The position numbers and the translations under genes were made by a program. The notes under the pieces are model-generated. The model saw only the letters and a program-made list of their open reading frames with translations, was not told where the DNA came from and ran no database searches. Of a stretch of 32,022 bases of DNA, positions 1 to 21,790 are shown in pieces (position 1 is the stretch's first letter; every line of letters begins with the position of its first letter). The stretch is from assembly GCA_016787295.1 (NCBI GenBank), contig JAEUUX010000293.1, forward strand, positions 1 through 32,022. Reading direction: 5' to 3'. Source of the stretch: Chitinophagales bacterium (GTDB lineage Bacteria; Bacteroidota; Bacteroidia; Chitinophagales; UBA2359).

Positions 1-126
1 AATATCTCATTGTAAGGGAACAATATCTCATTGTAAGGGAACAATATCTCATTGTAAGGGAACAATATCTCATTGTAAGGGAACAATATCTCATTGTAAG
101 GGAACAATATCTCATTGTAAGGGAAT
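1..126. repeat. 21-bp tandem repeat array, six visible copies
   Basis: Six head-to-tail copies of a 21-bp unit that begins AATATCTCATTGTAAGG and ends GAAC. They occupy 1-21, 22-42, 43-63, 64-84, 85-105 and 106-126. All are identical except the last base of the sixth (C to T). The array runs off the left edge, so the true copy number is unknown. Each unit contains a short dyad, CAAT-N5-ATTG. A lone seventh unit lies at 471-491, beyond a non-repeat stretch. No gene is associated with it inside the window. Confidence 0.95.
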
Positions 127-470
127 AATTAAATAACGACATTAAAAAGTGGTATTGCAAAAAGGATAACGGTAAAAATGCTAGGGCAAATAACCCCGTC
201 GGGGTGAAATGATGTCATATTTTGTCGAATAATGTCACCCCGTCGGGGTTTATGTTAATTATTCTATTATTTTGAGGCTATAAACGTGTCACCCCGTCGG
301 GGTTTTTATTATTTTGAGCTTGTAATCTTGTCAACTAATTGGGTTTGTTTTGATAATAACAAATAACACCTTGATAAGCTTGTTATCAGCGTGTCATTAT
401 CAAAATATCAGGCATTTGTCATTTTTTTACAACAACACAAGCTAAAACCACTTTTTAATGTCGCTATCAA
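127..470. repeat. Inverted-repeat-bounded non-coding segment interrupting the array (MITE-like candidate)
   Basis: The segment between the sixth repeat unit and the lone unit at 471-491 carries inverted repeats near both ends. The left arm is 133-153, containing CGACATTAAAAAGTGGT at 137-153; the right arm is 447-467, containing the exact reverse complement of that 17-mer at 447-463. Extended to 21 bp, the arms differ at one position. No open reading frame of note lies between them. The interior holds three GC-rich palindromes and a TGATAA-N5-TTATCA hairpin near 373-389. Units of the array on both sides suggest a small element inserted into the array. No clear target-site duplication was seen, and a structured spacer is an alternative. 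Confidence 0.45.
193..303. repeat. Three identical 13-bp palindromes ACCCCGTCGGGGT
   Basis: The perfect 13-bp sequence ACCCC-GTC-GGGGT occurs at 193-205, 237-249 and 291-303, start to start 44 and 54 bp apart. The second and third share extra flanking sequence (GTC before, TTT after). They stand out as GC-rich islands in very AT-rich DNA. Each could form a 5-bp-stem hairpin or be a symmetric protein-binding site; the sequence does not decide which. Confidence 0.85.
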
Positions 471-2851: not shown

Positions 2852-3736
2852 TTACGAAATTTTAACCGAAGTCATGGTGAGCGAACCTGCTACGGCTTTG
2901 TCGTTATATAAGCTAATAGATTCGTCTTCTTCTTGCAAGGCAATGGTATAGAGCAAAGGCAGATAGTGTTCGGGAGTAGGAATAGCTAATTGAAAAGCCT
3001 TGCCTTGTTGTTGATAATTAATGAGAGACTCGTGTTGGCGATTTTGAAGGTATTGTTTCATTTTTTGCGCGGCTTCTATTGCCCAGTCATAGCCATAATT
3101 GTCGGCATTGAGTTTATCCCAAGCCAAGATATTGAGGTTGTGTACCATATTACCACTACCGACAATTAGCACACCTTTTCGGCGCAAACTTGCCAATTGT
3201 TTTGCCAACTCGTAGTGATAAAGGGGTGGTTTGGTATAATCCAAACTCATTTGCAAGGTTGGCACATCGGCATTGGGGTATAGGTGTTTGACAACACTCC
3301 AACAGCCATGGTCTAATCCCCACGTATAGTCCAAGCCTACAGTGGTGCTGGTTATGGCACTTTGGGTTTGTTTTGCCCATTCGGGGCTGCCTGGGGCGGG
3401 GTACTGCACGGCAAATAAAGCATCGGGAAAGCCTCCAAAGTCGTGTATTGTAGGTGGTTTTTCCATCGCTGTTACCAATGTGCCTTTGGTTTCCCAATGT
3501 GCCGAAATGCACAAAATAGCGGTAGGTTGGGGTAATGTTTGTGCAATGGTGCGGAAGCCTTGCACAAATTCGTTTTCTTCTATGGCATTCATTGGGCTGC
3601 CATGTCCCAAAAACAAGACAGGCATACGAGGAGTAGAGTCTAATTTTTGGCTAATTGGATATAGGTCTTTTAGTTGCATGATACCACCTAATATTGGTAG
3701 AGTAAGAAGATATTGGATAAATTGACCTCTTTTCAT
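2852..3736 (-). CDS. YgiD-like 4,5-DOPA extradiol dioxygenase family protein (LigB fold)
   Basis: Members of this class III extradiol dioxygenase family are small iron or zinc enzymes that open catechol rings; E. coli YgiD acts on DOPA. The 294-residue product has the family landmarks: LGHGSPMN (H45), CISAHWE (H80), IHDFGGFP (H98), LDHGCW (H143), GSGNMVHN (H199) and TPEHYLPLLY (H257), covering the expected metal and acid-base histidines. An N-terminal extension with a hydrophobic stretch at residues 8-20 (QYLLTLPILGGIM) precedes the family core, which begins near residue 38; it could be an export signal, or translation could start later. It is a single-gene unit with its own promoter box upstream and the GC-rich repeat just after the stop. 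The physiological substrate cannot be read from the sequence. Confidence 0.9.
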   Translation of the reverse strand: MKRGQFIQYLLTLPILGGIMQLKDLYPISQKLDSTPRMPVLFLGHGSPMNAIEENEFVQGFRTIAQTLPQPTAILCISAHWETKGTLVTAMEKPPTIHDFGGFPDALFAVQYPAPGSPEWAKQTQSAITSTTVGLDYTWGLDHGCWSVVKHLYPNADVPTLQMSLDYTKPPLYHYELAKQLASLRRKGVLIVGSGNMVHNLNILAWDKLNADNYGYDWAIEAAQKMKQYLQNRQHESLINYQQQGKAFQLAIPTPEHYLPLLYTIALQEEDESISLYNDKAVAGSLTMTSVKIS

Positions 3737-13585: not shown

Positions 13586-16500
13586 CTATTGTTTAACAAC
13601 TGTACGTGTGAGGCTATGTTTGGGTGTGGTTATTTGGACAAAATACAAACCTTTTGCGTCGGGTAGTGGCAATAGGGTAGTAGCTTGTCGACTATAATCA
13701 TATTGTTTGCTAAACACCATTTGTCCCAAAGCATTATATACCTTGATGGTGACAGGTGTGGCTTGTTCAAACACAAAATCTACCATTGCATTGTCGGTTG
13801 TGGGCGAAGGATAAACGCTTATCATGCCGTTGTTGGTGGGTAGATGAGCAATGCCAATGGCTTCGCATGGCAAATCATTGTTGTAAGGCATATTTGGCAA
13901 GTCATAGCCTATTAAAAATTGGTGATAAATACTGCCACCAAAATCAGGGTCAAAGGTGATATAGGTAGTTCCATTAGGAGCTTTTAGTTTGGCATTACCA
14001 TTGCCCTCGCCCGAAGCTGCCCACCATGACAAACCGTTGTTGCCCGCACCACTTGCCTCTTCTTCGTCCAAAAACTCTAAGACATAGCAACCAGGGTCAA
14101 GGGTAAAAACATCATTATAAGTAGCATTGTTGTTGATAGTTTGGCGCTCGGTGATGATGTTGTTAAAGGCATCTTTGAGGGTATAAGAGTTTTGGAACAA
14201 ACTACGAGCGTTGCCTTTGAATTGGAAAATCATGCCCGAATCGTAGCGCGGTGGTGCCTCAAAACGGCTTTCGGCGCGGTTATTTAGGCTATATTCATCG
14301 GTTTGGCTATTGGGTGAGTCTACCGTAACAAAGAAAACAGGATTGTTAGGGTCAAAATTAGACCAATTCATTTGAGGCAGTTTCACTTCAACTACTTCGC
14401 CAAAACGCAACTCGCCAAACCACTGATAACAAGACGGAAACGTACCAAAACCTAAACCATCTTTTACGCCATAATGTATCATACAATTGTACAACACTTC
14501 GGAGCCATTATTGCGAATGCGCACGACAGGACCATCACAAATAGGATTGCGGCGCGAATGATATTGCGTCATTGAAGGCGATACAATTTCTTCAATAGCC
14601 ACATCGTTCGCAAAACGATAGGAACTATAGCTAATCATTTGGGTTTCGATAACCCAATTGCCTTGTGGTGTGCCGGTGGCTTGTATGCCATAGTCAACAG
14701 CAAACGGTTCATCGGGAGAAATATAAGGCGTAATATCCACATCAAAAGTAGGCACGACATCGCCCGGACACCAATTGGCTCGGTCATATATCCATGTGCC
14801 ACCTTGAGGATAAACAGGATTAAAAGCGCATTCGCGTTTGAGCAATTGTGTAAAGCGCGTCACGCCATCGACTTTGATTTGATGATTTTTGTAACAAAAT
14901 TCCGCACAATTTTCCGAAGATTCCATACCGTGTCCCGTTGTGCGCATTTTGACACGCGCCGATGCCGCACCTGTAGGCAAAGAGGTCGTAATTGGCGTAC
15001 AAGCTGTATTGTTTTGGATATTGGCATAACCAAAACTACCATTCCAAAGGTTTTTGACACCCACAACATCATGAGCGGGCAAGCCGCGAATGAACGCAAA
15101 CCGCAAGTCATGTAACTCTTGTGCATTGCCCGAACGAATGTATTTGCTGCCGCGCAACAAAGGAGCATAGTCGGTCACGTCATATATCCACGTAAAACCG
15201 TTGGCTCCCAAATCTAAGTTAATGCCATATGGGGTAATGAATCGCCCAATTTCAAACTGCACAATACCACTATAGTATTCCTTATCTTGGCGTGCCAAAC
15301 TTTGCTCGGCTGCCACCAATACCGAGTCGGTTGCTATGCCGTCGGTATAGGTATAAGTGTAGGCATCTGCCTGCCAAACGCTAAGGGTATCTGTAGGAAT
15401 GGTCGGGTGATTGGGTGCATCTTCGGCGACAATAGTGCCATTAGCAGGATTATCGTACAAAATGACACTCACAGACGGATTTGGCTCGGTATAAGTCCAG
15501 AGGCTTGTTTCGGTGGTGAAATCATAGACTCCGTTTTGTTCCAAAATGACATGTGGTTTGGTGTTGCTTGCCAATAGGTCTAAAAAACTATCAGCGGCTT
15601 TGGTGGTGCGGTGAGCGGGATAACCCATCATCGTGCCGTCATTATTGTTGCCTGAAGCATCTTGAGCAATGCTGCCACTTGTTTCGTCAAATGGATAATA
15701 GACCAATAAATTGCTATAGTTGGGGTGCGTATTGTTCAAGTGGCGGTTTTTCCAATCGTGGATTGTTGTGGCATCTAAGGCTTTATTGAATACCGCAAAC
15801 TCGTCCATCGAGCCATGATAATACATCCAACCTTCGTTGAAACCGCGCGCAATACGGAATTTGGTAATACCAGCCATGCTTTTGGTTTTGCCTGCTCCTG
15901 AATGCCACAATGTTCCGTCCAAATAAATTTGCATGGAGCCTGTGGTAGCGTTTTTGACAAATGCCCAATGGTGCCAACCTCCTTCGGAGGCTGTGCCTGC
16001 CGATTTGTTAATACGGTCGTAGGAACTTGTTTGGTTGTGTCCTGCGTCCCAATACACCACGTTGTCGCTCCAAGGCAAATGCACATTCAAAACACGACGG
16101 TTTTGTGCATCAACGGCTTCGAAAGCATAAGTAGTAGTGGGCATTTCGGCAGGGTCGCCATAGCTCCAGAACATGACCGTTACCTCCTGCCCGATATTGG
16201 CGAGATTATTCACAGGCACTTCGATATAATCACCTGTCGCCAAATCGAGATGATGGTTGTCTTGTTGCGTGGCTATGCAACGAACGGAGGCTTCTGTGCT
16301 ATGATAGCTTTGCAAACTATTAACACCGTTTCCGTTATAGCTAATATCCACCACAATATCGCTCGTGCCGTTCCAAGCGAAAGGTGTGGTAAAGTAATAG
16401 GTAGCTTCGTTGGTGGCAGCAGCCGAAACAGCATTGTTGTGGTGGTATACCGTTGTGAATCCGCCGCTCATGGGTTCGCTATAGCCGTCAGGAAAAGCAC

Positions 16501-17176
16501 TTTGGTTAGTGTTTTTCATCGCAATAGTAAAATCGGTCAGGTCGGCTGCCCCTTCGAACAAGGGGAATCGCATTGCCGTAATGTTACCCGTTGCCATACC
16601 CATGCCTATCATTTCGCTTTGACTGATGATAAACTGGGTGCGGTTGCGGTTGTGAGACAAACCCAAGGGAATGTTACCATTCGCTGTAGCTGTCCCAATG
16701 GTGTGCGATGTACCGCCCAAAGTATTGCTCACATTAAGATAAGTTTGCGTTTCGTTGTAGGTGGTATAGGTAGGAGTGGAGGTGTATGAAAAAGTGTTGG
16801 GTGTTTCGCCTTTCACCGAATAGTTGACTTGTGTACGGCGTGTGGAGTCATACAAACCAGTCGAGTCGATGAGGTGTGTATAGCTCAAATAGTCCCATTC
16901 GCCACAAGGATATTGGTCTTGGTTAGTGGCTGCATCACACTTGAGGGTATAATACATCAATATCTTTTGGAACGATTCGGTGGGAGCAGGAAATTGGAAA
17001 GAGCCTTTGTACTGCTCTCCTCCGCCATAACCACCTTGCGGATTGGGCATAGAAAAATTAAAAGTATTGACCCAAACCGTATCAGGTAGGTCTTGGGCTA
17101 TAGCCATAGTTGACGATAGCAATAAGCCGCAAAAAAGTTGAAAAAAACGTAAAAAGTAAAGTTTTTTGTTTATCAT
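13586..17176 (-). CDS. Type IX-secreted protein with PNGase F-like and LamG domains
   Basis: The product is 1195 residues from the ATG at 17176 (MINKKLYFLRFFQ..., signal peptide ending AIAQ); the longer frame to 17209 only adds residues ahead of the signal. The N-terminal region resembles the first domain of peptide-N-glycosidase F-related proteins (SMPNPQGGYGG, YPCGEWDYLSY at about 89-99). A LamG/concanavalin-like domain follows at about 306-480 (YIEVPV..., GGWHHWAFVKN, MQIYLDG, GSMDEFAVFNKAL). Next comes a PNGase F C-terminal-like domain (FTWIYDVTDY at 661, RTTGHGM, NCAEFC, NPVYPQGGTW, NWCPG near 805). A type A sorting domain closes the protein (ISVYPSPTTDNAMVDF ... GLYFVQI), directing it through the outer membrane. 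Glycan binding or deglycosylation is plausible; catalytic competence cannot be asserted because the active-site acids were not aligned. Confidence 0.88.
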   Translation of the reverse strand: MINKKLYFLRFFQLFCGLLLSSTMAIAQDLPDTVWVNTFNFSMPNPQGGYGGGEQYKGSFQFPAPTESFQKILMYYTLKCDAATNQDQYPCGEWDYLSYTHLIDSTGLYDSTRRTQVNYSVKGETPNTFSYTSTPTYTTYNETQTYLNVSNTLGGTSHTIGTATANGNIPLGLSHNRNRTQFIISQSEMIGMGMATGNITAMRFPLFEGAADLTDFTIAMKNTNQSAFPDGYSEPMSGGFTTVYHHNNAVSAAATNEATYYFTTPFAWNGTSDIVVDISYNGNGVNSLQSYHSTEASVRCIATQQDNHHLDLATGDYIEVPVNNLANIGQEVTVMFWSYGDPAEMPTTTYAFEAVDAQNRRVLNVHLPWSDNVVYWDAGHNQTSSYDRINKSAGTASEGGWHHWAFVKNATTGSMQIYLDGTLWHSGAGKTKSMAGITKFRIARGFNEGWMYYHGSMDEFAVFNKALDATTIHDWKNRHLNNTHPNYSNLLVYYPFDETSGSIAQDASGNNNDGTMMGYPAHRTTKAADSFLDLLASNTKPHVILEQNGVYDFTTETSLWTYTEPNPSVSVILYDNPANGTIVAEDAPNHPTIPTDTLSVWQADAYTYTYTDGIATDSVLVAAEQSLARQDKEYYSGIVQFEIGRFITPYGINLDLGANGFTWIYDVTDYAPLLRGSKYIRSGNAQELHDLRFAFIRGLPAHDVVGVKNLWNGSFGYANIQNNTACTPITTSLPTGAASARVKMRTTGHGMESSENCAEFCYKNHQIKVDGVTRFTQLLKRECAFNPVYPQGGTWIYDRANWCPGDVVPTFDVDITPYISPDEPFAVDYGIQATGTPQGNWVIETQMISYSSYRFANDVAIEEIVSPSMTQYHSRRNPICDGPVVRIRNNGSEVLYNCMIHYGVKDGLGFGTFPSCYQWFGELRFGEVVEVKLPQMNWSNFDPNNPVFFVTVDSPNSQTDEYSLNNRAESRFEAPPRYDSGMIFQFKGNARSLFQNSYTLKDAFNNIITERQTINNNATYNDVFTLDPGCYVLEFLDEEEASGAGNNGLSWWAASGEGNGNAKLKAPNGTTYITFDPDFGGSIYHQFLIGYDLPNMPYNNDLPCEAIGIAHLPTNNGMISVYPSPTTDNAMVDFVFEQATPVTIKVYNALGQMVFSKQYDYSRQATTLLPLPDAKGLYFVQITTPKHSLTRTVVKQ

Positions 17177-17211
17177 AACATAGAATTTTGTTGGTATTCT
17201 GTTTTGCATAG

Positions 17212-17383: not shown

Positions 17384-18253
17384 TTAATAACAAGCATAAA
17401 CACCACTACAATTGCTATTATTACTAGGTCCACACCATGCCCCAAAGCCACAAGTATTACTTAACCCTTGTAATCCAACAACAACATCTTGCAAAACAAA
17501 TACCGTTCTTACCCAGATATTGGGAGAAACACAACAAGGACTAATTACTGAATTACATTTAAAAATACTCGTGTTAAGATAAAAAAGGTTATTGGAATTG
17601 GTGTTTGCCCAATAGTTATCTGTTCTGGTGAAATTAGATCCACAATCCCCCACTATTTTAACAATTTTATTATTGTTCCATATAGTGCAAGGGTTACAAG
17701 CTCTACTATTGCCTTTGGAATAAAGTTGAATTTCTCCAAGATTAAAAATAGTTTTGATTTTTGTATTTCTTAGCAAGTCTACTATTTTTTCGCTTAAACG
17801 CAAATCGTAAGCAGGCAGTGTTTCTAGATCTATAGGCGAATAAATTTTGGTCAAACTGATGGAAACAAATGTATTACCGTTTGGAGACACAAAACTATTC
17901 TCATTTAGCTTAGTTCCATTGGCAGTTTCATCTTTAGAAACTTTCGATAAACACTCATTGACAGTGTTTGTATCAAGAAACTTAAACGTAATACTTGAAT
18001 TATCGAAACTTTCAAGTAGGCTAACATTGTTAGAAGATATCTTAAAGGTGAAATCATAAACACGGCTATTTTCAATACCTTTAACAGTGATTTCTTTATG
18101 ATATGGGGCATTTTCACCATTAGGAGGAAGTTGTTTACCTTCCATATCTGTAGTAACAGGGATTGTTGTCTCTACCGCTTCTTTTTGACAAGAAACAAAA
18201 CCTAAAAAAGCAATTAGCAATAAAGCTAAAACGGAGGAAATTTTTGAAAACAT
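17384..18253 (-). CDS. Cysteine-rich lipoprotein of unknown function
   Basis: The product is 289 residues with a lipoprotein signal (MFSKISSVLALLL...GFVSC, lipid-carrying C22). The N-terminal half (about 50-170) looks like a beta-rich domain with an asparagine- and serine-rich composition. The C-terminal 110 residues carry nearly all cysteines: ACNPC, GDCGS, FKCNS, SPCCVSP, NTCGFGAWCG and NCSGVYACY at the very end. This arrangement suggests several disulfide bonds in a compact surface domain. I recognise no family. It is a single-gene unit with a full promoter upstream and a strong terminator downstream. A 23-copy tandem array lies about 180 bp upstream of its promoter. Its base composition is more AT-rich than the secreted-protein gene beside it. 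Confidence 0.78.
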   Translation of the reverse strand: MFSKISSVLALLLIAFLGFVSCQKEAVETTIPVTTDMEGKQLPPNGENAPYHKEITVKGIENSRVYDFTFKISSNNVSLLESFDNSSITFKFLDTNTVNECLSKVSKDETANGTKLNENSFVSPNGNTFVSISLTKIYSPIDLETLPAYDLRLSEKIVDLLRNTKIKTIFNLGEIQLYSKGNSRACNPCTIWNNNKIVKIVGDCGSNFTRTDNYWANTNSNNLFYLNTSIFKCNSVISPCCVSPNIWVRTVFVLQDVVVGLQGLSNTCGFGAWCGPSNNSNCSGVYACY

Positions 18254-18324
18254 AAAGATAAATTTAGAAGTTAAAAAATACTCAATCTTATCATCGCTGC
18301 GCAGCTATTGTTGGATTGATGACG

Positions 18325-18359
18325 CAAAGGTAAAGCTTGATGATACTTCTAACAACAAA
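18325..18359 (-). promoter_or_regulatory. Promoter of the cysteine-rich lipoprotein gene
   Basis: On the minus strand, TTTGTTG (18359-18353) is followed after 20 bases by TACCTTTG (18332-18325). The leader is about 65 nt and includes the 10-bp palindrome GCTGCGCAGC near 18297-18306. Confidence 0.7.
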
Positions 18360-18539
18360 TAGTGATGAAAAGGCTTATTTGAGAGTCGTAATTATTTAAT
18401 CACTTTTTTGAAGGGTTTTGTCAAATGACGAATTGGGAGTTATAGTGGATAAATGGCAAAATCGGTTATTTATAAAGTTTTTTGGTGTGTGAAAAGATAA
18501 TTCCTCAGTTGTAAGAAATGATATAACTATACTATAAGT

Positions 18540-19044
18540 GGCAAAATGATTTGTACAGATGGCAAAATGATTTGTACAGATGGCAAAATGATTTGTACAG
18601 ATGGCAAAATGATTTGTACACGTGGCAAAATGATTTGTACACGTGGCAAAATGATTTGTACACATGGCAAAATGATTTGTACACATGGCAAAATGATTTG
18701 TACATATGGCAAAATGATTTGTACACGTGGCAAAATGATTTGTACACGTGGCAAAATGATTTGTACACGTGGCAAAATGATTTGTACAGATGGCAAAATG
18801 ATTTGTACACGTGGCAAAATGATTTGTACAGATGGCAAAATGATTTGTACACGTGGCAAAATGATTTGTACACGTGGCAAAATGATTTGTACACGTGGCA
18901 AAATGATTTGTACACGTGGCAAAATGATTTGTACACATGGCAAAATGATTTGTACACGTGGCAAAATGATTTGTACACATGGCAAAATGATTTGTACACG
19001 TGGCAAAATGATTTGTACACGTGGCAGAATGACTTTAGGACACG
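18540..19044. repeat. 23-copy 21-bp tandem array with one variable dinucleotide
   Basis: Exactly 23 units of 21 bp run from 18540 to 19022, each GGCAAAATGATTTGTACA, then two variable bases, then T. A degenerate 24th unit ends the array (19023-19044, GGCAGAATGACTTTAGG...). All 23 full units are identical except at the two variable bases, which are GA (5 units), CG (13), CA (4) or TA (1), in the order GA GA GA CG CG CA CA TA CG CG CG GA CG GA CG CG CG CG CA CG CA CG CG. With its neighbours the variable pair sits in CANNTG. A partial unit (ATGGCAAAATCGGTT) occurs at 18453-18467. Because 21 is a multiple of three and the unit has few stops, several frames stay open; these are not genes. Confidence 0.97.
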
Positions 19045-19051
19045 CAAAAAT

Positions 19052-19104
19052 AAAAAAACCAATCCCTTCAGAAGTTCAAAACCTCCAAAGGAATTGGGTT
19101 TTTT
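19052..19104. terminator. Imperfect bidirectional hairpin between the array and pbpC
   Basis: The arms around AACCAATCCCTT and AAGGAATTGGGTT pair with one bulge and one mismatch and are bordered by T runs on both strands. On the minus strand it would end the pbpC transcript after it has crossed GC-rich element copy 3. That would leave the tandem array outside the transcribed region. Confidence 0.45.
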
Positions 19105-19210
19105 ATGACAAATTTATTTTTTCATTTATACAAAGTCCCGATTATTACAAACAAAAAAAACAACACACAATAAACATTTGCAAGGGACAAAGAACATGGT
19201 TTGTTCAGTA

Positions 19211-19394
19211 GTAGTGTTCTATTTTATCTATTTTGCCGTAAAAAAATAAGGGTGTATTTGTTCGAATGGCGAAGCGCGTTAGGGATTGTAAGGGTGGCGT
19301 TAGCCAGTGCGGAGAGCAACGCAGCACCATAGCGAAGCGAAGCCCTGTAAAGCCCGACCCGCAGGGAAACGCCCAAAAAAATCAATGCGTTATT
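19211..19394 (+). repeat. Dispersed GC-rich element, copy 3
   Basis: Same orientation as copy 1. The core spans 19260-19374, from GTTCGAATGGCGAAGCG to GGGAAACGCCC, with the shared AT-rich left flank TTCTATTTTATCTATTTTG (about 19217-19235) and the right flank AAATCAATG. It differs from copy 1 by scattered substitutions and a shorter AT-rich segment before the core. It lies between the tandem array and the 3' end of pbpC, about 40 bp past the pbpC stop. Confidence 0.85.
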
Positions 19395-19435
19395 TATCGA
19401 AATAATTAACCAAAATGAAACGCTACTAAGTTTTT

Positions 19436-21790
19436 TCACAAAAACACCACATCGATATAAATAGTCTGTTGTCTGCCTTTGTCGTCCACACAAGTAATTT
19501 TGTTGTTGCCGACTTTGGGTACAAAAAACACGCGTTCTTTGGGAGTAGCCGCCGCAACAAAAGCATCGTTTACATACCAAAAAACTTTTGCCACTTCGGG
19601 CGAAACGGCGCAGCGCAATAGCAATTCTTCGTTATCCTTTCGGTCTATGAGGTATTTTAATTGGTGAGTCGGGTGCAAAATTCGAGGTGGCGTACCTGTC
19701 GTAAAATAGCGCTCACATTGCGGGTTATGCGGTGGTATTTTTTGATAAGGCATTTTTTCTTGTTCATAAAAAGCTATCAATTCGGGCGGCAAGTTGTTGT
19801 ACCAACGCATAACGGCATCGGCAGGCGCACAAGCAGTGCAATAGCTCATTGTTTCGGTGGTATTGACTAAGACTTGTTTGCGATGCTCGCAAATGCTATT
19901 GGTGGAGATGGTTGGCAGGTAGTAATCCATGATTTTGTTGGTGCAAAAACGCGGGTCGGGCGGCAAACCTGTCTCGCTACATACCCAGCGGCGCTCCAAA
20001 CCCGCAGGCATTGTTGCTTTGGCTGCTTTGCTTCTATAATCTATCGTGTTGAACACTTCAAACAACAAAGGTGTTGCGACATTGGTGCCGGTCAAATTCT
20101 GGTTGCCCTCACCCGAAAAATTACCTACCCAAACGCCAATTGTATAGTTTTTGTTATAGCCAATACTCCACGCATCTTTTCGTCCGTAGGAAGTACCTGT
20201 TTTCCAAGCAATGCGCGGCAGGTTAATACTGCTTGCTTCCACACCCGTAGGCAGGTCGGGGCGCGTGAGTTCGTCCAAAATGTCCGTCACGATATAGGCA
20301 GCCGATGGGCTACAAATCGTTTGTGGTGAGTTAAGGGTATCATTCACCAAATAATGGGCAGGGATAAATTGTCCTTCGTTCGGAAAAATACTATAAAGGT
20401 TGGTTAGTTCCTCCAAAGTGGTGCCACAACCGCCCAATATCAGCGAAAGTCCCAATTTAGGGGCTTTTTTTATTTCTTGGCAATGCAATTGTACCAAATT
20501 TTCCACAAATTTGCTCGTGCCATACTGCTCTAAAAGTCCGACAAAAGGCAGGTTCAAGGAATGTGACAAGGCATATTCGCAACTGATACGTCCGTTGAAA
20601 GTTCGGTCGTAGTTAAGTGGCGAATAACCCGAGAAACTCATTGGCACATCGAGCATTTTTTGTTGTGGTGTAATCAAACCTTCGTCGAATGCCAAGGCGG
20701 TGAGCAAGGGTTTTAGGGTGCTGCCCGGCGAACGAACGGCTCGAATGCCGTCGACTTGCCCTCCGTCTTCGATGTTCGCAAAATCGGCAGACCCAACATA
20801 AGCTACAATTTCGTGGGTGCGGTTGTCGATGACCAATACCGCCGCATTGTGTATTCGTTGAGCGTAATAGCGCTGCATATAATTGTAGGTGATTTGCTCT
20901 ATTTTGCGCTGTTGGTTTGCATCGATGGTAGTGTGAATAATTTTGTCGGCATAGTGTCGCTGTAGGCGCAAAGACAAATGTGGTGCCATGCGCGGCACAC
21001 TTTGTCGTTCGGCATTCAGCGGCTCCGTCATTGCTTCTGCAATACTTTGCTCCGAAAAAATGCCGCTATCTGCAAAAGTTTGTAGCCAACGGTTGCGCTC
21101 TTGTTTGTTTTTATCATTGTTTTTGCCCAATGCCAAAGAAGTAGGACGGTTGGGAATGATGGCTAAAGTAGCGATTTCGGCGGGACTCAACTGTTCGGGT
21201 GTTTTGCCAAAAAACAACACCGCTGCCGATTTGATGCCCTCAATATTGCCTCCATACGGCACCAAGTTGAGATAGTGTTGTAATATCTCTGCCTTCGAAT
21301 AGTGCCATTCTAATTGCAAAGCCCGAAACATTTCTACCAATTTGTGCCAATAGGTGCGTGCTTTGGGGTCGAGGAGGCGCGCCACTTGCATGGTGATAGT
21401 GGAAGCCCCCGATGTGCGTTTTTGTTGCAACAAATTGTTCATCGCTGCCCGCACCAAAGCAATAGGATTGATGCCCCAATGGTAGTAAAAATACTTGTCT
21501 TCTTTGTAGATAATAGCGGCGGATAATTGCGGACTAATTTCAGGCAAAGTGGTATACATTCGCCATTTGTCGTCGGTTGTTAAGAAACTGTGCAATATAG
21601 CTCCTTTTTTATCCACCACGATTGGCGAATAAGGAACATCGATTTGCAAAGGGAAAAACAAGTCTAAACAACGAAAAAAAGCAAAAAATAAAAAAAAATA
21701 CCGAAAAATTTGCCAAAGAATTGGGAATTTTTTGTGAATTTTTTTGAGCTGGGCATGAACGCGCTTTTGGTAGGGATTTTCGTATAACAT
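19436..21790 (-). CDS. pbpC: Penicillin-binding protein 1C (bifunctional class A-type)
   Basis: A 784-residue envelope enzyme with a membrane anchor at about 28-48 (IFRYFFLFFAFFRCLDLFF). The GT51 glycan-polymerising domain follows, with KEDKYFYYHWGINP (catalytic Glu at 97), SGASTITMQVARLL at 128-140 and the LNLVPYGGNIEG stretch near 175-185. The transpeptidase domain has all three penicillin-binding motifs: S357-T-L-K360 in RSPGSTLKPLL, S411-L-N413 and K530-TGT. A C-terminal BiPBP_C-like domain covers about the last 90 residues, as in E. coli PbpC. The alpha-2-macroglobulin gene that often accompanies pbpC is not in the window. The start is the ATG at 21790, about 35 bp after a full promoter. 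GC-rich element copy 3 lies in its presumed 3' region. Confidence 0.95.
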   Translation of the reverse strand: MLYENPYQKRVHAQLKKIHKKFPILWQIFRYFFLFFAFFRCLDLFFPLQIDVPYSPIVVDKKGAILHSFLTTDDKWRMYTTLPEISPQLSAAIIYKEDKYFYYHWGINPIALVRAAMNNLLQQKRTSGASTITMQVARLLDPKARTYWHKLVEMFRALQLEWHYSKAEILQHYLNLVPYGGNIEGIKSAAVLFFGKTPEQLSPAEIATLAIIPNRPTSLALGKNNDKNKQERNRWLQTFADSGIFSEQSIAEAMTEPLNAERQSVPRMAPHLSLRLQRHYADKIIHTTIDANQQRKIEQITYNYMQRYYAQRIHNAAVLVIDNRTHEIVAYVGSADFANIEDGGQVDGIRAVRSPGSTLKPLLTALAFDEGLITPQQKMLDVPMSFSGYSPLNYDRTFNGRISCEYALSHSLNLPFVGLLEQYGTSKFVENLVQLHCQEIKKAPKLGLSLILGGCGTTLEELTNLYSIFPNEGQFIPAHYLVNDTLNSPQTICSPSAAYIVTDILDELTRPDLPTGVEASSINLPRIAWKTGTSYGRKDAWSIGYNKNYTIGVWVGNFSGEGNQNLTGTNVATPLLFEVFNTIDYRSKAAKATMPAGLERRWVCSETGLPPDPRFCTNKIMDYYLPTISTNSICEHRKQVLVNTTETMSYCTACAPADAVMRWYNNLPPELIAFYEQEKMPYQKIPPHNPQCERYFTTGTPPRILHPTHQLKYLIDRKDNEELLLRCAVSPEVAKVFWYVNDAFVAAATPKERVFFVPKVGNNKITCVDDKGRQQTIYIDVVFL

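Follow-up and report, generated by a model that had tools for sequence, protein, structure and literature searches.

A tandem array of 21-bp units in a Chitinophagales bacterium and further arrays of the same period in its genome

Structure and surroundings of the array

The window, that is the whole stretch of 32,022 nucleotides from a Chitinophagales bacterium that was analyzed, contains a tandem array at positions 18540-19022 (plus strand), which is located between two genes on the minus strand. The first is an ORF of 289 amino acids (17384-18253), the N-terminus of which resembles that of a lipoprotein by eye, and the array lies upstream of its start. This ORF had no Pfam match, and its sole match in its own genome was itself. 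The second gene (19436-21790) encodes a penicillin-binding protein of the 1C type (PBP1C) with Transgly, Transpeptidase, and BiPBP_C domains, and the array lies downstream of its stop codon. Between the array and the PBP1C gene a terminator-like hairpin of 18 pairs with a T-rich tail is present (19059-19097, minus strand), one such hairpin in the region comparing with 0.7 expected in shuffled sequences. In the interval 18200-19460 one promoter of the sigma-70 type was predicted versus 4.9 in shuffles, in a search that would miss promoters of the Bacteroidota type. No Rfam family reached its gathering score in the window. Positions 13586-17209 encode a protein of 1207 amino acids with a peptide-N-glycosidase F C-terminal domain, a laminin-G-type domain, and a Por secretion tail.

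Two dispersed elements were also observed in the window. One of them, of about 120-190 bp (GAATGGCGAAGCGCGTTAGGG...), has dozens of places in the genome sample described below, and three of these are in the window, at about 19231-19421, 542-704, and 2666-2789. The other, which is characterized by CACCCCGTCGGGGTT motifs, occupies positions 130-470 and has more than 10 further places in the sample, several of them less than 600 bases away from 21-bp arrays.

The array consists of 23 head-to-tail copies of the 21-bp unit GGCAAAATGATTTGTACANNT, in which NN stands for CG, GA, CA, or TA, and it ends with a degenerate last copy, GGCAGAATGACTTTAGGACACG, at 19023-19044 (plus strand). Tandem Repeats Finder (TRF) reported a span of 18538-19032 with a period of 21 and 23.6 copies. 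The motif GGCAAAATGATTTGTACANNTG matched exactly 23 times, always in register from position 18540, and it was absent from the remainder of the organism's 5.42-Mb genome; the backward control had no match. All 23 units are identical at 19 of the 21 positions, and variation is restricted to two adjacent bases, which are CG in 13 units, GA in five, CA in four, and TA in one. The unit tally and the exact matches thus confirmed the first-pass annotation, which had described 23 units of 21 bp that vary at a single dinucleotide, and the search for the same unit elsewhere in the genome, which it had proposed, revealed this one place only. Bacterial minisatellites have units of about 10-100 bp, and the head-to-tail arrangement and the high identity of the units are those of a minisatellite. 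The existence of the array is far beyond chance.

The dinucleotides follow each other in the order GA GA GA CG CG CA CA TA CG CG CG GA in units 1-12 and CG GA CG CG CG CG CA CG CA CG CG in units 13-23. This order did not differ detectably from shuffles at lags of 1 to 10 units, and directly neighboring units were equal in 10 of 22 cases versus 8.2 expected (p 0.22, shuffles), so that the earlier description of unit types that are neither blocked nor strictly alternating holds. Each window of four units is unique within the array.

Five of the six reading frames are open through the array, with extensions beyond it of at most 59 codons on one side, and the frame at 18546-19211 (plus strand) had no Pfam match above the curated cut-off. 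The array is therefore taken to be non-coding, and it is not part of an ORF that has a body of its own outside the repeats.

Arrays of the same period in the genome and in relatives

To survey tandem arrays, 87 stretches of the organism's genome were read, the window included and pieces that overlapped or touched each other joined; 15 of them, at least half of which was N, were dropped, and 72 stretches with 1,302,557 bases of the 5.42 Mb were kept, including stretches of the contigs C69, C78, C174, and C151 that had been picked because they contained matches. The count comprised arrays that had three or more copies, reached a TRF score of 100, and had a period of 10 or longer. A period of exactly 21 was found for 33 of the 60 arrays; among the remaining 27, ten had multiples of 21 (42, 84, 126, 168, 336) and 17 had other periods, including 41 (once), 43 (three times), and 453 (three times). 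When the picked contigs and the window were omitted, the period was 21 for 28 of 55 arrays, which equals about 24 per Mb and leads to an estimate of some 130 such arrays per genome, a figure that is rough because most stretches begin at contig ends.

The self-similarity of the sample was in line with these counts. Per Mb, 4008 positions were self-similar at lag 21 and 4378 at lag 42, compared with 107 at lag 22, 319 at lag 41, and 364 at lag 43. Peaks were present at lags 21, 42, 63, 84, and 105, while the value was zero at lags 10, 11, 20, 31, 32, and 52 in the 1.30-Mb sample. Also diverged regions with 50-75% identity preferred this period: there were 92 at lag 21, whereas no other lag between 12 and 45, with the exception of 42, had more than 32. 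Of the 92 regions at lag 21, 66 were non-coding, compared with at most eight at lags 18, 19, 20, 22, 23, and 24; overlapping regions were not merged, and many of the 66 come from a few places, e.g., C120 and C55, which means that the number of loci is smaller.

The 33 arrays with period 21 fall into 24 unit families (at most five differences within a family). A second 21-bp array is located in the window itself, where 6.1 copies of the unit AATATCTCATTGTAAGGGAAC at positions 1-129 (plus strand) are cut by the start of the contig; related units were found on C69, C78, and C174. The A content is 0.285 in arrays and 0.297 in the sample. On C242 (75169-75292) two unit types have centers, TGCGCG and CGCGCA (between AATG and CATT), that are reverse-complementary to each other, which may be chance.

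Although 84% of the sample is covered by ORFs of 120 codons or more, 39 of the 43 arrays whose period is 21 or a multiple thereof are not part of an ORF having a body of its own. For this count ORFs were called from stop to stop, which is a rough method, and at least 100 amino acids outside of the array were required as own body. The neighbors on both sides were visible for 17 of the 39 arrays, and the ORF pairs were convergent in seven cases, had the same direction in nine, and were divergent in one, as is expected if arrays are tolerated away from promoters.

The unit of the 18540-19022 array was found in one of 20 genomes, i.e., in that of the organism itself. The PBP1C protein had a match in 19 of the 20 genomes of the family, including its own, although some matches were merely distant paralogues; it is 48% identical to the protein of a Cytophagales MAG. 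A strong and nearly full-length match was present in 14 relatives. Downstream of PBP1C, where the array begins after about 400 bases in the window, no array with a period of 20-22 was detected in any of these 14 relatives (1,433-1,500 bases each, TRF score 40), and other short repeats were present at their loci. When 23 joined unit families were compared with 19 relatives, a weak match of one family only was obtained in a single genome, G004; of the first candidates, 19 of 98 were scored in the own genome and 19 of 32 in G004. The G004 matches lie in regions rich in repeats of 7, 15, and 22 bp, and one of them (L181) has also a period of 21. In 554,968 bases from 12 relatives (nine of the family, three of the order; about 12 kb of N) two of 12 arrays, counted with the same thresholds, had a period of 21. 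They are located in two members of the family, G011 and G012; each of the two genomes has a different 21-bp array, and each array is cut by a contig end. Because of these two arrays the tendency toward 21 bp may be common to the family; as sampled, it is far stronger in the genome under study.

Other replicons were considered as a source. A query of one unit and nine additional bases had no match in viral contigs, and a phage origin was discarded. The only plasmid record that was matched, AP029160 of Pigmentibacter ruber, has a 21-bp array of eight copies (AP029160.1, 62815-62981) that is 71% identical over 41% of the query; the other rows with period 21 of this plasmid comprise only about 2-3 copies with scores of 54-74, leaving one strong array, and the match was treated as a coincidence.

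A period shared by so many arrays could have been inherited, if all of them descended from one ancestral array that spread and the units diverged past recognition. Several families indeed have members at more than one place (e.g., C174, C241:1, C69, C78), from which it follows that some arrays have spread rather than originated locally, and diverged arrays retain the 21-bp frame. In addition, five of 276 pairs of families differ at no more than seven positions versus 1.5 expected, and 14 of 276 at no more than eight versus about 6.4 in shuffled units. However, the distances between families are otherwise close to those of shuffled units, and in the sample the left flank of the 18540-19022 array is unique, while only two short copies of its right flank are present. 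Common descent of the whole set is thus regarded as unlikely.

Confined variation and possible protein binding

The first-pass annotation had argued that random decay would scatter changes over the unit, and it had offered either recent amplification and homogenization of four unit types or selection on the 19 fixed positions as an explanation. The argument presupposes many mutations. CG, GA, and TA are each one substitution away from CA, and thus three substitutions are sufficient to generate all unit types. Three random substitutions fall into one adjacent pair of positions in 147 of 9261 placements (0.016), which makes the restriction to two neighboring columns no more than a mild surprise; with this probability and an estimated 130 such arrays in the genome it is unremarkable. 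Other arrays of the genome have no variable column at all (e.g., C30, C43, C46), one variable column (C2, C250, C260), or, in the case of C15, two adjacent variable columns that are AA or GG, while four to six more scattered columns vary in the arrays of C6 and C174. That one array varies at just one dinucleotide is therefore ordinary, and of the two explanations the recent spread of four unit types fits the results.

Across arrays the variable columns are nevertheless closer together than under random placement. In 20 arrays with 2-10 variable columns, in which every variable column was counted, 33 adjacencies were observed versus 20.9 expected (p 0.001), and the span was also reduced (p 0.0008). 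With one array per family (n = 18) the p-values for adjacency and span were 0.0028 and 0.0008, and after removal of the 18540-19022 array (n = 17) they were 0.006 and 0.002. The effect was weaker when only columns common to at least two units were used (adjacency p 0.054, span p 0.007; 12 arrays). Of the 14 arrays with at least two such columns, 12 were included in this test; C10 and C32 were omitted because just four of eight and nine of 24 units, respectively, were in register. Without the 18540-19022 array the values were 0.13 and 0.015, and without this array and that of C54 they were 0.24 and 0.040. Confined variation was not retained as a general rule. The clustering itself counts against a minisatellite, and some units may contain a segment that is constrained or hypervariable, so that some constraint is possible.

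One form of constraint would be a binding-site cluster, in which a protein would recognize TGTACA-NN-TGGCA from one face of the helix, with NN as a free spacer between two half-sites and the remaining bases under selection. The variable bases sit between CA and TG, about two helical turns separate each of the 23 sites from the next, and the clustering of variable columns in other arrays points in the same direction. Symmetric units are common in binding sites of the iteron or centromere type, although they are not required. Dyad symmetry was not above shuffles in the 24 unit families, the summed best arm being 72 versus 74.7 in shuffles (sd 3.6, p 0.82), and for the unit of the 18540-19022 array alone the best arm was 4 (p 0.51). 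Palindromic units with a variable loop, which had been suspected by eye for this array and those of C174, C78, C7, C100, and C15, were discarded on the basis of the same lack of a dyad excess. The core TTTGTACANNTGGCAAAA had 35 places outside of the array with up to two mismatches versus 10 for the backward control, and a weak genome-wide excess of near-copies is possible. With up to one mismatch, however, it had only three places in the genome outside of the array, and two of these are 126 bases apart on C201, amid further copies with two mismatches. That contig carries at 2918-3437 the near-copy TTTGTACATTTTGCAAAA and variants thereof five times, at steps of 125-126 bases, or about 6 x 21, and this regular series accounts for five of the 35 places. 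Moreover, the mostly unrelated units of the other arrays would require a separate protein for each. The symmetry result and the scarcity of near-copies elsewhere, together with the sufficiency of three substitutions and with arrays that vary at none, one, or several columns, argue against the selection on 19 fixed positions that had been put forward earlier, and a function of the array as a protein-binding cluster appears improbable.

Origin of the array and of the 21-bp period

Intergenic tandem units of a similar length are known from the same phylum. According to its published description, BrickBuilt of Porphyromonas gingivalis is an intergenic 23-nt minisatellite of 1 to 22.8 copies within a MITE; its single unit family occupies 19 sites, of which 11 have a leader and a tail, and it has small inverted-repeat ends (PMC4596501). 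It resembles the 18540-19022 array in its occurrence in Bacteroidota, its intergenic location, its head-to-tail units of about 20 bp, and the concentration of non-conserved sites in one half of the unit (PMC4596501). A location of the array within a MITE-like mobile element could be envisaged by analogy, also because the two dispersed elements occur near arrays in the window. Yet 24 mostly unrelated families of one length are present here, no pair of flanking inverted repeats was found around the array at a 9-base seed, and the unit occurs at a single place. A comparison of the flanks with the 1.30 Mb revealed neither a leader and tail nor many copies; the right flank matched over just 36 and 32 bases, the latter match being 13 bases away from the C100 array. 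The element at 19231-19421 was rejected as a carrier, because its other places are mostly more than 1 kb away from an array or in array-free stretches, and only a few are within 200 bases. A mobile element as the origin is disfavored and very unlikely.

Many arrays of unrelated units across one genome, as found here, have been described for the Borg elements of Methanoperedens archaea. According to that report, the Borg arrays are recent, independently formed, and often terminate contigs; they have several unit lengths, are perfect and enriched in A, and about half of them lie in ORFs (PMC9879509). The arrays analyzed here differ in that their length is almost fixed, their units carry substitutions (four unit types in the 18540-19022 array), A is not enriched, and most of them are non-coding. 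Many mostly unrelated units of one length are described for neither BrickBuilt nor Borg repeats (PMC4596501, PMC9879509). Among the matches listed in the open-licence literature, none was a nearer known system than these two, and none dealt with arrays of a strict 21-bp period in Bacteroidota.

That an assembler generated the array by looping through a short repeat is extremely unlikely, because diverged regions keep the 21-bp lag, and also the four interleaved unit types with their unique 4-unit windows and the internal position of 18 of the 33 arrays speak against it, even if the other 15 stop at a contig end and 21 is a frequent k-mer size of assemblers. Exact internal repeats do not exceed 107 bases in the 18 contig-internal arrays and 83 bases in 16 of them, while they exceed 83 bases in 12 of the 15 arrays at contig ends and are shorter or equal in three. 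The separation is not clean, but it fits with an assembly that passes arrays chiefly at places with a locally unique unit order. Short-read assemblers pass a locally unique order more easily, and therefore the mixed order of unit types may partly be an ascertainment effect, i.e., a condition for the visibility of the array. Use of the unit order as a strain fingerprint, as had been suggested, is possible.

Taken together, the results favor, with reasonable confidence, the explanation that the array is a non-coding minisatellite and one of a genome-wide, mostly intergenic set of strict 21-bp arrays with mostly unrelated units. A function of its own is improbable, and the array is probably just tolerated in the intergenic space. 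It can be read as a young array in a lineage with a register of 21 bp, with slippage or unequal exchange keeping its units uniform. A short local sequence would have been duplicated in this register, and units would then have been gained and lost by replication slippage or unequal exchange in steps of one to few units. The CG, GA, and TA units in their mixed order could go back to an ancestral CA unit, in which three single-base changes arose that were then copied widely. With bacterial VNTR/MLVA minisatellites the array shares the tandem structure, the presumed slippage or unequal exchange, and the potential as a strain marker; to our knowledge, no period common to loci is expected for them.

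The array alone is an ordinary minisatellite, and the notable feature is the shared period. The period itself suggests that the register probably stems from a fixed-length duplication step rather than from the sequence of the unit. A constant slip length may be set by a complex that acts in replication or repair, perhaps together with the helical phase of the DNA. Geometrically, the earlier equation of 21 bp with two turns of the helix is reasonable, but the peaks at lags 21, 42, 63, 84, and 105 with nothing at 10, 11, 31, 32, and 52 imply that helical phase alone is insufficient, and a fixed slip length or footprint is just as likely as two helical turns. It is tentatively proposed, as a possibility on the speculative side, that intergenic arrays arise de novo in this lineage through a process that does not depend on sequence and has a fixed step of 21 bp. 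If this were true, a molecular ruler of replication or repair would be visible as a single-length duplication spectrum in the genome.

One exact period in more than half of the sampled arrays, in spite of mostly unrelated sequences, is unexpected under free slippage. The 21-bp arrays may account for break points in assemblies of the lineage, and the origin of a minisatellite unit length, by a fixed-length duplication step or by spread from one ancestor, has become testable.
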